From: Actinomycetota bacterium
GTDB taxonomy: Bacteria; Actinomycetota; UBA4738; HRBIN12
NCBI GenBank assembly: GCA_035697485.1
Contig: DASSCU010000003.1
Location: forward strand, 1-48,970
Direction: 5' to 3'
DNA length: 48,970 nucleotides
The position numbers and the translations under genes were made by a program. Each line of letters starts with the position of its first letter. The stretch's first letter is position 1. A model generated the notes under the pieces. The model saw nothing but the letters and a program-made list of their open reading frames with translations. It made no database searches and was not told the origin of the DNA. Positions 31,227 to 48,970 of the stretch are shown here, piece by piece.

Positions 31227-31358
31227 AGCTCGTTTCCGGGGCGGGGTGCGACTCCCCACCGGCGGTGAGAGTCCGCGACCCCACGGCCGCCAGCCGTGGG
31301 TGGATCCGGTGCGATTCCGGAACCGACCGTGACAGTCGGGATGGGAGGAGACGGGCAC
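31227..31358 (+). promoter_or_regulatory. FMN riboswitch (RFN element)
   Basis: The leader shows the conserved RFN blocks in order: CGGGGCGGGGTG, CTCCCCACCGGCGGT, GAGTCCGCGA, GGATCCGGTG, ATTCCGGAACCGAC and AGTCGGGATGGGAG. FMN binding turns down the rib genes. Downstream, CTCC at 31420-31423 can pair with GGAG at 31428-31431 in the ribD Shine-Dalgarno, so the switch probably controls translation; the pairing change is inferred. Confidence 0.95.
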
Positions 31359-44382: not shown

Positions 44383-45005
44383 GCCCCCCACGGCTGCCCC
44401 GATCGTTCTACGAGCGTCCGGCGGTGGAGGTCGCGGCCGACCTGCTCGGCCGCATCCTGGTGCGGCGGCTGCCCGACGGCGCTCGCCTCGCCGGGCGCAT
44501 CGTTGAGACCGAGGCCTACGAGCCCGGCGATCCCGCGAGTCACGGCTTCCGCGGCATGACCGCTCGCAACGCAACGATGTTCGGGCCCGCCGGGCACCTC
44601 TACGTGTACTTCAGCTACGGCAACCACTGGATGATGAACGTGGTGACCAGGGGATCCGGAGAAGGCAGCGCCGTGCTCCTGCGAGCGATCGAACCGGAGG
44701 CGGGGCTCAACGCGATGGCTCGGGCCCGGGGGCGCGATCGTCCGCTCGACCTGTGCTCGGGCCCCGGCAAGCTCGCGCAGGCGTTCTCGGTCGACCGGTC
44801 CCAGGACGGCGTCGATCTCGTGATCGGACACGAGGTATGGATCGAGCGCGGCACGCCGACCTCCGACGCCCTCGTCGCGACGTCGGCGAGGGTGGGGGTG
44901 CGGGTGGGGTTCGAACGGCCGTGGCGGTTCTTCGTGGCCGGCGATCGGTTCGTCAGTCCGGGCCGGCCGGGACCTCCGACGTCTCCGCGACCTCCGACAC
45001 CGTGA
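44379..45005 (+). CDS. 3-methyladenine DNA glycosylase (AAG/MPG type), CTG start
   Basis: Removes alkylated purines from DNA. The protein is read as 208 residues starting SPPRLPRSFYERPAVEVA, with GRIVETEAYEPGDPASH (catalytic Glu), NATMFGPAGHLYVYFSYG and CSGPGKLAQAF. No ATG, GTG or TTG lies in frame near the N-terminus; CTG 44379 overlaps the polX stop as CTGA, like the ATGA/GTGA links elsewhere here, and fits homologues. The only in-frame ATG (44202) is 180 nt inside polX. Its 3' end overlaps the convergent PBP gene by 53 nt. Confidence 0.92.
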   Translation: MSPPRLPRSFYERPAVEVAADLLGRILVRRLPDGARLAGRIVETEAYEPGDPASHGFRGMTARNATMFGPAGHLYVYFSYGNHWMMNVVTRGSGEGSAVLLRAIEPEAGLNAMARARGRDRPLDLCSGPGKLAQAFSVDRSQDGVDLVIGHEVWIERGTPTSDALVATSARVGVRVGFERPWRFFVAGDRFVSPGRPGPPTSPRPPTP

Positions 45006-47208
45006 TCGTGACGGTGCTCGTCTGGTTCGCCGAGGTCCCCGCCGAGGGGGACTGGTAGATCACGGTGCCGGCGGGTTGGGTCGAAGGCTCGACCCGAACC
45101 GCGACGTAGAACCCGGCGTCCTCCAACGCGAGCGCGGCTGATGCCTGATCGAGCCCGATCACCGACGGCACCGGCACCGATTGCACCCTCGTGGGTGACG
45201 TGCACACTTCGGTCGGTTCCGTGCCTTCGATGAACTGCAGCGTGTCGATGTTCTGTGGCAGCGTGTAGGCGTTGGGCAGGCAGTACGGCGATTGCGAGAC
45301 GTCGACCGACACCGAGAGGTAGCCAACCTCCGGCGTCGGGAACTCGCGTTCGGGCAGGTCTGCTGCGGCTCGCAACATGAACAGCCGCCAGATCTGAGCC
45401 GGCCATGTGCCCCCGAAGACGGTGATGCGCGTGCGAGGCGGTTCCATCGGGATCAGCCCTTCGTGGAACCCGATCCAGACGGCGGCGGTGAGCTGAGGGA
45501 TCGCGCCGACGAACCACGCATTCGTGTGTGTGTCCGCGGTGCCGGTCTTCCCCAGCTGCGGCCGCCCGATGATCGCCGATCGTCCCGTGCCGTAGCTCAC
45601 GGCGTCCTGCAGGATGTCGGCGGCCGCGGACGCGACCTGGGGCTCGAGCACCTGCTTGGGGTGGGGGCGAGCCTGCCACAGGGTCTCGCCCTGGGGATCG
45701 GTGACGCTGACGACCGGGACCGGATCGATGTGAGCGCCGCCGGTCGCGAGCGTGCCGTAAGCACTCGCCATCTCGAGCGTGTTCGCCTCGTTCGTGCCGA
45801 GCACCGCCGAGAGATAGGGTGAGAGCGGCTCGTGCGGCTCGCTCACCCGCAGGCAGCACCGCATCCCCATCCGCTCCGCCGTCTCGACCACCTTGTCCGG
45901 CCCGAGCTGCTGGATCAACTGTGCGTAGACGGTGTTCACCGAGTTCACCGTGGCGCTGGCGAGGCTCATCGAGCCGTAGCCGCTGCCCTCCGCGTTCGTC
46001 ACGTGCCAGATCGTGCCCCCTTCGAGCGGGATGTCGATCGTGGCCGGGGCCGGGAACACCGTGGATGGGCTGATGCCGTTCTCGAGGGCGGTCACGAGGG
46101 CGTACGCCTTGAAGGCGGAGCCTGTCTGGCGCCCCAGGCCGCCCTCGCCGGTCGCGAGGTTCACGCGCCCCGCGTCGGCGTCCCTCCAGTAGTCGGTGTC
46201 CTTGCCACCCACCATCGCCCGCACGAACCCGGTCCGGGGGTCGATCACGGTCATCGCGCCGTCGGGGTCGCCCCGGCTCTCGAGGACCGAGCGGACGGAG
46301 TCCTCGGCCAGCTCCTGCGTCCGAGGGTCGAGCGTGGTCGCGATGCGCAGGCCCCCGGTGAACAGGAGCTTGTATCGGTCCTGGCGCGTCGCGCCGAACG
46401 CCGGGTTGGCCAGGAACCATTCCTTGAAGTAGTCGACGAAATAGGGGAACCGGTAGCGATCGGTCGGCTCGCCACGATGCAGGACGATCGGCTCGCGGAC
46501 CGCGGCGCGGTACTGCGCAAACTCGATCAGGTGCTGGTCGCGCATCAGCCGCAGCACGACGTTTCGCCGGCCGTACGCGCTCTCCGGGTGCACGAACGGA
46601 TCGAAGTGGTTCGGCGCCGCGATCAGGCCGGCGAGCAGTGCGGACTGTCCGAGGCTCAGCTCGCGGGCGTCGATCGAGAAGTAGGTCTGGGCCGCGGATT
46701 GCACGCCGTACGCGCCTTCCCCGAGATAGACCGTGTTCAGGTACTTCGTGAGGATCTGATCCTTCGAGAGGCGATCTTCCAGCTGCCAGGCGAGCGATGC
46801 CTCGTCGAGCTTGCGCCGGAGCGTGTCGGCGTTGCCGACGTAGAGGTTCTTCACCAGCTGCTGGGTAATCGTGGAGCCGCCCTCGGTGACCTCCCCCTCG
46901 TTCGCGTTGACGACCGCCGCCCGGGCGATCGCGCGCACGTCGACGCCGTGATGGGCGAAGAACCGGCGATCCTCGATGGCGACCGCGGCGTCCCGGACGA
47001 AGGGGGACATCTCGCGCTGGCGCAGGACGACCCGGTTCTCGGCCGCGTGCAGCTCGGTGATCAGCGAACCGTCGGCGGCATACAGGAACGAGGTCTGCGC
47101 GAGTGGCAGTGGATCGTATTCGTCGATGCTCGGCAGGTCACACGCCGTCGCGGTGACCGCGAGCAGCAGCATCGAGCCGAACAGGGGGAAGCCTCGGCGG
47201 TGGCGCAT
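44953..47208 (-). CDS. Class A penicillin-binding protein with PASTA domain
   Basis: Bifunctional peptidoglycan synthase. The 751 residues have a short hydrophobic N-terminus ending AVTATAC, where C23 could be a lipidation site or the segment a membrane anchor. The glycosyltransferase 51 domain shows EDRRFFAHHG (catalytic E79) and GGSTITQQLVKNLY. The transpeptidase domain has SAFK (S364), SVN (423-425) and KTGTA (554-558). One PASTA domain (about 685-745) ends the protein. The longer frame up to 48051 would cross tyrS and is rejected. It is divergent from tyrS and convergent with the glycosylase. Confidence 0.95.
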   Translation of the reverse strand: MRHRRGFPLFGSMLLLAVTATACDLPSIDEYDPLPLAQTSFLYAADGSLITELHAAENRVVLRQREMSPFVRDAAVAIEDRRFFAHHGVDVRAIARAAVVNANEGEVTEGGSTITQQLVKNLYVGNADTLRRKLDEASLAWQLEDRLSKDQILTKYLNTVYLGEGAYGVQSAAQTYFSIDARELSLGQSALLAGLIAAPNHFDPFVHPESAYGRRNVVLRLMRDQHLIEFAQYRAAVREPIVLHRGEPTDRYRFPYFVDYFKEWFLANPAFGATRQDRYKLLFTGGLRIATTLDPRTQELAEDSVRSVLESRGDPDGAMTVIDPRTGFVRAMVGGKDTDYWRDADAGRVNLATGEGGLGRQTGSAFKAYALVTALENGISPSTVFPAPATIDIPLEGGTIWHVTNAEGSGYGSMSLASATVNSVNTVYAQLIQQLGPDKVVETAERMGMRCCLRVSEPHEPLSPYLSAVLGTNEANTLEMASAYGTLATGGAHIDPVPVVSVTDPQGETLWQARPHPKQVLEPQVASAAADILQDAVSYGTGRSAIIGRPQLGKTGTADTHTNAWFVGAIPQLTAAVWIGFHEGLIPMEPPRTRITVFGGTWPAQIWRLFMLRAAADLPEREFPTPEVGYLSVSVDVSQSPYCLPNAYTLPQNIDTLQFIEGTEPTEVCTSPTRVQSVPVPSVIGLDQASAALALEDAGFYVAVRVEPSTQPAGTVIYQSPSAGTSANQTSTVTITVSEVAETSEVPAGPD

Positions 47209-47217
47209 CGCCGGGCG

Positions 47218-47286: not shown

Positions 47287-48501
47287 ATGGCTCCCCGAGA
47301 CCCCGACGATCTGGGCGTGCTCGCCGCCGATGCGGCCGACGTCGTGCCGCCGGGGGCGCTCCGCGACAAGCTCGCTCTCGGCAGACCGCTCCGGGTCAAG
47401 CTGGGGCTCGACCCCACCGCCCCCGCGGTCACGCTCGGATGGGCGGTCGTGCTCCGCAAGCTGCGCCAGTTCCAGGACGCCGGACACACGGCCGTGCTGA
47501 TCGTGGGCGACTACACGGCGCGGGTCGGCGATCCGTCGGCCAAGGCTGAGACCCGTCGCCGGTTGTCGAAGGAAGAGGTCGACGGGTACGCCGAGCGGCT
47601 GCTCGGACAATTCCGGAAGGTGCTCTCCGAGGACCGGCTCGAAGTCCGGCGCAACTCCGAATGGCTCGAGCCCATGGGCATGGACGACGTGCTTGGCCTC
47701 ACCTCCTCGATCACCGTGGCTCGGATGCTCGAGCGCGACGACTTCGCGACGCGACATGCTGAGGGCAAGCCGATCTCCCTGATGGAGTTCATGTACCCGC
47801 TGCTGCAGGGCTACGACTCCGTCGCGGTCCACGCCGACGTGGAGCTCGGTGGCACCGACCAGCTCTTCAACCTCTTGGTCGGTCGCGACCTCCAGCGTGA
47901 CCACGGGCAAGAGCCGCAGCTCGCGCTCACGATGCCGCTCCTCGAGGGGCTCGACGGGGTGCAGAAGATGAGCCAGTCCCTGGGCAACTACGTGGGGATC
48001 GACGAGGCGCCCGACGAGCAGTTCGGCAAGCTGATGTCGATCCCGGACCATCTGATCGTGAAGTATCTGCGCCTGTGTACGCCGATATCGTCACCCGACG
48101 CCGACGAGGTCGAGCGAGGACTGGCCGTCGGGTCGCTGCACCCCAACGACCAGAAGCGCCGCATGGCGCGACTCGTAGTCGACCTGTACCACGGCGAGGG
48201 TGCCGGGTCGCGAGCAGAGGCCCGGTTCGACATCGTCCACAAGCAGCACCAGTTGCCCGCCGAGGTGCCAGAGATGCCCGTCCCCGGCGAGGCGCTCAGG
48301 GATGGCCGCGTGTGGCTCCCCCGGCTCCTCGTCGCGACGGGGTTGGCCGCATCCAACGGAGAGGCGCGCAGGGCCGTCCGGGGGGGAGGCGTCCGGCTCG
48401 ACGGTGAGCCGCTCGACGATCCCGACGCCGAGTATCAGCCGGAGTCGTTGCGCGGCAAGGTGTTGGCGGTCGGAAGGCGTCGCTTCGTCCGGCTCGTCTG
48501 A
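47287..48501 (+). CDS. tyrS: Tyrosyl-tRNA synthetase with altered ATP-site signatures
   Basis: Class I synthetase of the type 2 TyrRS group, 404 residues. Tyrosine and core motifs are kept: KLGLDPTAP, LMEFMYPLLQGYDSV, ELGGTDQLFNLLVGRDLQ, and a C-terminal S4 RNA-binding domain (about 335-404). The HIGH signature, expected as HLGH, reads TLGW (49-52), replacing both catalytic histidines, and KMSKS reads KMSQS (227-231). The rest shows no truncation or frameshift. Either it works with an altered ATP site or it is a paralogue and another TyrRS exists. ATG 47287. Confidence 0.92.
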   Translation: MAPRDPDDLGVLAADAADVVPPGALRDKLALGRPLRVKLGLDPTAPAVTLGWAVVLRKLRQFQDAGHTAVLIVGDYTARVGDPSAKAETRRRLSKEEVDGYAERLLGQFRKVLSEDRLEVRRNSEWLEPMGMDDVLGLTSSITVARMLERDDFATRHAEGKPISLMEFMYPLLQGYDSVAVHADVELGGTDQLFNLLVGRDLQRDHGQEPQLALTMPLLEGLDGVQKMSQSLGNYVGIDEAPDEQFGKLMSIPDHLIVKYLRLCTPISSPDADEVERGLAVGSLHPNDQKRRMARLVVDLYHGEGAGSRAEARFDIVHKQHQLPAEVPEMPVPGEALRDGRVWLPRLLVATGLAASNGEARRAVRGGGVRLDGEPLDDPDAEYQPESLRGKVLAVGRRRFVRLV

Positions 48502-48836: not shown

Positions 48837-48970
48837 TCTACGGAGAGTTTGATCCTGGCTCAGGACGAACGCTGGCGGCGTGCTTAACACATGCAAGTCG
48901 AACGGTGAACCGGGCTTCGGCCCGGGGATCAGTGGCGAACGGGTGCGTAACACGTGGGCAACCTGCCCCA
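48837..48970 (+). rRNA. rrs: 16S ribosomal RNA, 5' part only
   Basis: The sequence GAGAGTTTGATCCTGGCTCA at 48844-48863 is the universal 16S start, followed by GACGAACGCTGGCGGCGTGC and GTGCGTAACACGTGGGCAA. The gene runs out of the window after ~134 nt. The pattern is actinobacterial. The exact mature 5' end is approximate. Confidence 0.97.

Follow-up and report, generated by a model that had tools for sequence, protein, structure and literature searches.

A tyrosyl-tRNA synthetase with altered HIGH and KMSKS motifs in a group of actinobacteria

The HIGH and KMSKS motifs are the signatures that define the class I aminoacyl-tRNA synthetases and their taught mechanism. Near one end of a 48,970-nucleotide stretch of actinobacterial DNA (contig DASSCU010000003.1 of assembly GCA_035697485.1; the whole stretch analysed is called the window), a gene for a tyrosyl-tRNA synthetase (TyrRS) departs from both. 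This raises the question of whether its product is the working TyrRS of the organism, a decayed or repurposed relative, or an artefact. The features of the locus are as follows.

47287 to 48501, forward strand: tyrS, type-2 tyrosyl-tRNA synthetase, 404 amino acids plus stop (coding part 47287-48498; residues numbered from the ATG at 47287)
47416 to 47418, forward strand: T44, the conserved Thr of DPT
47431 to 47442, forward strand: T49-L50-G51-W52, replacing the HIGH motif (T49 at 47431-47433, W52 at 47440-47442)
47542 to 47556, forward strand: K86 to R90, in the loop that follows GDPS, with the basic residues kept
47587 to 47601, forward strand: residues 101-105, Y-A-E-R-L in place of the N-x-x-T-Y of type-2 TyrRS, by alignment, within helix 95-109 of the predicted model
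47965 to 47979, forward strand: KMSKS loop, K227-M-S-Q230-S231, by translation and alignment
48313 to 48429, forward strand: S4 RNA-binding domain (PF01479), residues 343-381 (28.9 bits, cut-off 22.8)
48837 to 48970, forward strand: 5' end of a 16S rRNA gene, cut by the window end (start also given as 48844)

The window enzyme and its altered motifs

The reading frame of the window tyrS was open and intact. The product scored 324.5 bits against TIGR00234 (cut-off 113.8) and 221.4 bits against the PF00579 catalytic domain (cut-off 21.1). The AlphaFold2 model, with a mean pLDDT of 93.6, a pTM of 0.88 and a dip in pLDDT at residues ~81-90 (the loop after GDPS), was predicted to have the TyrRS fold. 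Its closest solved structures were T. thermophilus TyrRS entries (Z 40-41, ~390 residues, 48% identity; top match Z 41.3 over 391 aligned residues), among them a complex with ATP and tyrosinol. On the open frame, the profile scores and the predicted fold, a pseudogene was ruled out. The 16S rRNA gene starts about 340 nt past the tyrS stop, which agrees with the adjoining rRNA operon described by an earlier, sequence-only reading of this locus. Immediately upstream of tyrS and divergent from it, the minus strand (44956-47211) encodes a class A penicillin-binding protein, in which transglycosylase, transpeptidase and PASTA domains were recognised. Elsewhere in the window, an FMN riboswitch (98.2 bits, 31228-31356) lies by a ribD-type gene.

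When the protein was aligned with T. thermophilus TyrRS (1h3e), HLGH fell over TLGW and KMSKS over KMSQS in exact register. The sequence-only reading, which had placed TLGW at 47431-47442 and KMSQS at 47965-47979, was therefore correct in its residues, and in its coordinates to within a base or two; its claim that the enzyme lacks the two HIGH histidines as well as the second lysine of KMSKS was borne out by the translation and by this alignment. The enzyme departs from the canonical class I signature at the first and fourth residues of HxGH (T49 and W52) and at the second KMSKS lysine (Q230), and agrees with it at the third HIGH position (G51) and the first KMSKS lysine (K227), both conserved in 70/70 rows of a type-2 TyrRS alignment.

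The same reading had regarded the remainder of the protein as intact, with the tyrosine and tRNA parts conserved and the change concentrated in the ATP-site motifs. This picture held, as indicated by the S4 profile match and by invariant pocket residues. D82, Y170, Q174, D177 and Q192, which we take from their roles in the B. stearothermophilus enzyme to be tyrosine-pocket and ribose residues, were invariant in the 70 aligned type-2 TyrRS, the window enzyme included. D42, P43 and R90 were likewise invariant across the 70 rows. T44 presumably corresponds to Thr40 of B. stearothermophilus, and the basic residues of the K86-R90 stretch presumably to its K82 and R86. Profile, fold and genomic position all mark the window enzyme as a TyrRS, and three of its residues depart from the canonical class I signature; as judged from its sequence, there is no support for crippled or repurposed catalysis.

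A matched set of residues among relatives

Since the sequence-only reading had proposed relatives as a check on TLGW, type-2 TyrRS sequences were gathered from 61 relatives (54 matched), from 296 genomes of the phylum (199 matched at 1e-40, of which 30 were taken as loci and 100 as stretches, a few of the latter repeating loci), and from 80 named loci of many phyla, the best 80 of at least 587 confirmed candidates. After 11 of 228 rows were dropped, namely ten copies, near-copies or pieces (L001, L033, L034, L035, L113, L114, L115, L116, L158 and L228) and L229, the match of which stops short of KMSKS, 217 remained. One gathered tyrS, L227 (G014 contig 75, 26391-27694), was broken mid-gene into two frames by a frameshift or an assembly error.

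W52 was found in 30 of the 217 TyrRS, and every one of these 30 carried Q230. In the other 187, residue 52 was H (172), F (14) or N (1), and residue 230 was K without exception. W52 and Q230 thus occurred together in 30/30 versus 0/187 rows; the former are referred to below as the W/Q rows. The same W and Q in 30/217 distinct TyrRS from many separate assemblies are more than chance or sequencing error. The idea that the motifs arose from a sequencing or assembly error found no supporting point and is refuted by the recurrence of these residues in 34 separately assembled sequences; its probability is practically nil.

Residue 49 behaved differently. The W/Q rows had T there in 26 cases, H in 3 and M in 1, and T was also present in 7/187 of the others. 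A strict tie of T49 to the other changes was ruled out by these counts. Therefore, the first histidine has been lost more freely, and W52-Q230 is the firm pair. The sequence-only reading of the motif loss thus stands for W52 and Q230, while its inclusion of the first histidine does not hold as a strict association, and it had missed a further residue. In a scan of all alignment columns, residue 105 was aromatic in 187/187 of the others (Y 181, F 6), whereas 30/30 W/Q rows had L (12), C (10) or V (8). Its neighbour, residue 104, was T or S in 186/187 of the others and mostly lost in the W/Q rows, and both residues lie in the predicted helix 95-109. The firm unit is W52, Q230 and the loss of the aromatic residue 105 in this helix. 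In the 30 W/Q rows, T44 was always T, and residue 86 was K, R or Q.

W52 and Q230 were the sole columns that were invariant in the W/Q group with a residue other than the majority one elsewhere. Pairwise identity within this group fell as low as 49%, with a median of 58%, and invariance of the pair at such a median identity would be expected from strong selection on it. Moreover, Q230 was encoded by both CAA and CAG, and therefore it is the residue, not the codon, that has been kept.

To survey the phylum at the DNA level, 396 genomes were scanned with two patterns, one for the LGW stretch alone and one for the KMSQS stretch alone. Each gave 30 matches, in the identical 30/396 genomes and the identical genes; the alignment already included the majority of these genomes, and the backward-pattern control gave zero in every listed row. 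The positive genomes belong to eight family codes (f1, f5, f10, f33, f41, f53, f74 and f79), with the LGW pattern in 13/13 f5 genomes and 8/13 f1 genomes. Four extra carriers found by the W pattern (G351, G402, G406 and G079) had KMSQS and a non-aromatic residue 105 in 4/4 cases. Among the 80 named loci, the best of at least 587 confirmed candidates, W/Q was present only in L033, L035 and L037, titled Actinobacteria, Actinomycetota and Acidimicrobiia. By both the 217-row alignment and the DNA-pattern scan, TLGW is lineage-wide.

Partial variants were also observed. HLGF with a normal KMSKS occurred in 14/187 non-W/Q TyrRS (L027, L036, L041, L066, L073, L187, L195-L197, L215, L217-L219 and L224), in which residue 105 was still Y or F. 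Therefore, Phe52 does not require a change of residue 105, whereas Trp52 was always accompanied by it. TLGH with a normal KMSKS, in which the first histidine alone is replaced by Thr, was found in several TyrRS groups: L107 and L111 (Verrucomicrobiota), L168, L173 and L223 (family f16), and L007 and L022 (family f1).

Gene number, locus and origin

The source genome comprises 3.41 Mb in 64 contigs and is 95.6% complete. A second tyrS, suggested earlier as a thing to look for, was not present among its PF00579 matches, of which there were two, the window tyrS and one gene on contig 20. Since the contig 20 gene is TrpRS-like, with HVGH and KMSKS and a weak match to the window TyrRS (E 6.8e-4), a second TyrRS was ruled out as far as this assembly extends. 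Its protein was used as the TrpRS reference for classifying other PF00579 matches. Among ten stretches, mostly picked by length from the 47 tRNA matches, one tRNA-Tyr, with anticodon GTA, was found. A single TyrRS together with a tRNA-Tyr in a 95.6%-complete genome fits a housekeeping gene.

The PF00579 search was performed on 18 W/Q genomes, and one TyrRS each was found in 18/18, all other classified matches being TrpRS. G197 and G207 had no PF00579 match besides TyrRS. A third match in G005 and another in G032, considered as extra TyrRS, were both TrpRS. The second PF00579 matches of G005, G008, G046 and G060 were judged indirectly, from the TyrRS search: in these four genomes no additional match surpassed E 4.7e-7, well short of TyrRS grade.

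As for the locus, the 16S rRNA gene started 322-620 nt past the tyrS match in 16/22 W/Q loci with at least 600 nt of downstream sequence, and a similar spacing was seen in several canonical relatives, among them the same-family L007, L012 and L022. W/Q and canonical tyrS share this place before 16S and are therefore orthologues. The arrangement of tyrS directly before a 16S rRNA gene recurs in many actinobacteria and at some loci from other phyla (HHK 9/77); examples are L004, L005, L006, L008, L010, L012, L026, L027, L028, L030, L032, L036, L041, L044, L057, L061 and L092.

These results bear on the possibility that the window gene encodes a TyrRS-like paralogue in which tyrosine activation has been lost, the true TyrRS having been missed by the assembly. 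Such a reading would fit the missing residues, which are known to stabilise the transition state, and a genome that is 95.6% complete. However, no second TyrRS was found in 18/18 W/Q genomes, several of them 99-100% complete, the tyrosine and tRNA parts are conserved, and the rRNA-operon locus is that of canonical tyrS. The paralogue is thus largely refuted and very improbable.

How often the W/Q state arose was addressed with trees. A quick tree built without the motif columns required 4 changes of the W/Q label, and a careful tree required 2. A single W/Q clade was not rejected by the AU test (p 0.558), the constrained one-clade tree being 2.72 log units better. Four independent origins, considered at one stage, were dropped since the careful tree needs 2 and the AU test is compatible with one clade. 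An independent-pairs test of W against Q offered only 1-2 pairs, and hence had no power. The co-occurrence of W and Q is perfect in extant sequences and may rest on one to four events; because the W/Q rows may be one clade, it may reflect shared history rather than required contacts. The case for coupling is weakest on this point, the possibly small number of origin events.

Two causes of fixation are compatible with the data. The first is neutral or near-neutral drift: soil bacteria that grow slowly would tolerate a less rapid TyrRS, and the triple change would have been fixed a single time and passed on. A single W/Q clade, compatible with the AU test, and the intermediates at residue 49 (T, H, M) and at residue 52 alone (F in 14 and N in 1 of 187) agree with it. 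However, across 30 sequences with a median identity of 58%, neither W52 nor Q230 varies, and the use of both CAA and CAG for Q230 indicates a maintained residue, so that we consider drift possible but rather unlikely.

The second is resistance, in which the altered interface would exclude a natural ATP-site inhibitor or block hijacking by AMP-mimicking nucleoside sulfamates. An altered HIGH motif does likewise for mupirocin in IleRS2, up to 1000-fold with G/AXHH, according to the part of that report available to us (PMC10485003). Similarly, in the accessible text of another study, ML901 hijacks the P. falciparum TyrRS (HIAQ, KMSKS) but not the human TyrRS (HVAY, KMSSS, with a mobile loop) (PMC7613620). 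The distribution of W/Q is patchy as well (8/13 f1 genomes, 30/396 overall). Nevertheless, no second, sensitive TyrRS was present among the PF00579 matches, and the trait is carried by 13/13 f5 genomes, so that it is not patchy everywhere. Resistance is rated as improbable.

A probably rebuilt ATP site and its known counterparts

Returning to the function of the window enzyme, it is probably the working and sole TyrRS of its organism, from an actinobacterial group in which the ATP site at the HIGH/KMSKS interface appears to have been rebuilt, as judged from sequence comparison and the predicted model. The concerted replacement of the ATP-site residues points to re-engineering of the active site and not to its breakdown.

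In the portion of one study available to us, mutating either HIGH histidine lowers TyrRS activity, both residues stabilising the transition state (PMC5919687); in LeuRS, the adenylate phosphate is contacted by the second KMSKS lysine, according to an excerpt of another (PMC5059758). Because the groups of the HIGH histidines and of the second lysine are missing here, the enzyme must compensate. Human cytosolic TyrRS and IleRS2 are two published examples that such compensation can be achieved. We propose that the bulky W52 would occupy the space vacated by Tyr105 and pack beneath the KMSQS flap, so that flap closure might proceed via a contact with Trp instead of a Lys-phosphate bridge. The charge of the transition state could be met by the retained Thr44, residue 86, Arg90 and Lys227, and perhaps by a bound K+. 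The chemistry would be unchanged, with Tyr and ATP converted to Tyr-AMP, followed by tRNA charging.

In human TyrRS, K+ is said, after Austin and First, to stand in for the missing second lysine. Archaeal TyrRS combine HLGH with KMSSS, which would indicate that the second lysine can be lost without an aromatic residue at HIGH position 4; this counts against the proposed mechanism. A bolder version, to which we attach little credence, is that the group holds a second bacterial solution to class I adenylation. In it, an aromatic clamp (Trp in the Tyr105 space) and a neutral Gln would replace the His/Lys transition-state machinery, convergent on human TyrRS and probably assisted by K+, and would have been fixed by defeating ATP-site inhibitors or reaction hijacking.

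KMSQS in a tRNA synthetase, TLGW in a synthetase and Thr40/His45 of tyrosyl-tRNA synthetase were not found in the open-licence PMC literature, and the variant may still be published. A lineage-wide housekeeping TyrRS without both histidines and the second lysine offers a natural test of which machinery is needed, and the matched set of three changes is a case for how an active site can be rewired. If inhibitor binding is also altered, there would be a bearing on TyrRS as a drug target, because human and malaria TyrRS differ from each other at this pair of positions. Human TyrRS escapes hijacking by ML901 and Plasmodium TyrRS does not, which makes the resistance reading testable.

Compared with the type-2 TyrRS of T. 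thermophilus (1h3e, 9sfq), the window enzyme is alike in the whole fold, the class Ic core and the C-terminal S4 domain, but has TLGW, KMSQS and Y-A-E-R-L where the former has HLGH, KMSKS and the N-x-x-T-Y helix. B. stearothermophilus TrpRS, a working class Ic enzyme that reads TIGN, shares with the window enzyme a Thr at HIGH position 1; unlike the latter, it keeps both KMSKS lysines. Human cytosolic TyrRS belongs to the archaeal/eukaryotic branch and is without the bacterial-type S4 domain. It resembles the window enzyme in having an aromatic fourth HIGH residue and a lost second lysine (HVAY, KMSSS) while being active, as far as the available parts of two papers go (PMC7613620, PMC2813244), but the first histidine is kept and Ala stands at HIGH position 3. 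The cytosolic TyrRS of Plasmodium has HIAQ and retains KMSKS, according to the same partial sources (PMC7613620, PMC2813244). IleRS2 with G/AXHH is likewise an active housekeeping class I synthetase with a naturally altered HIGH motif; in contrast to the window enzyme, positions 1 and 3 are swapped, the fourth histidine is kept, and no KMSKS change is described in the accessible part of that report (PMC10485003). The self-immunity LeuRS AgnB2 (KQSKS), a functional class I enzyme, also has a single Gln within its KMSKS loop, but this Gln replaces Met at position 2 and both lysines are kept, according to the excerpt available (PMC5059758).
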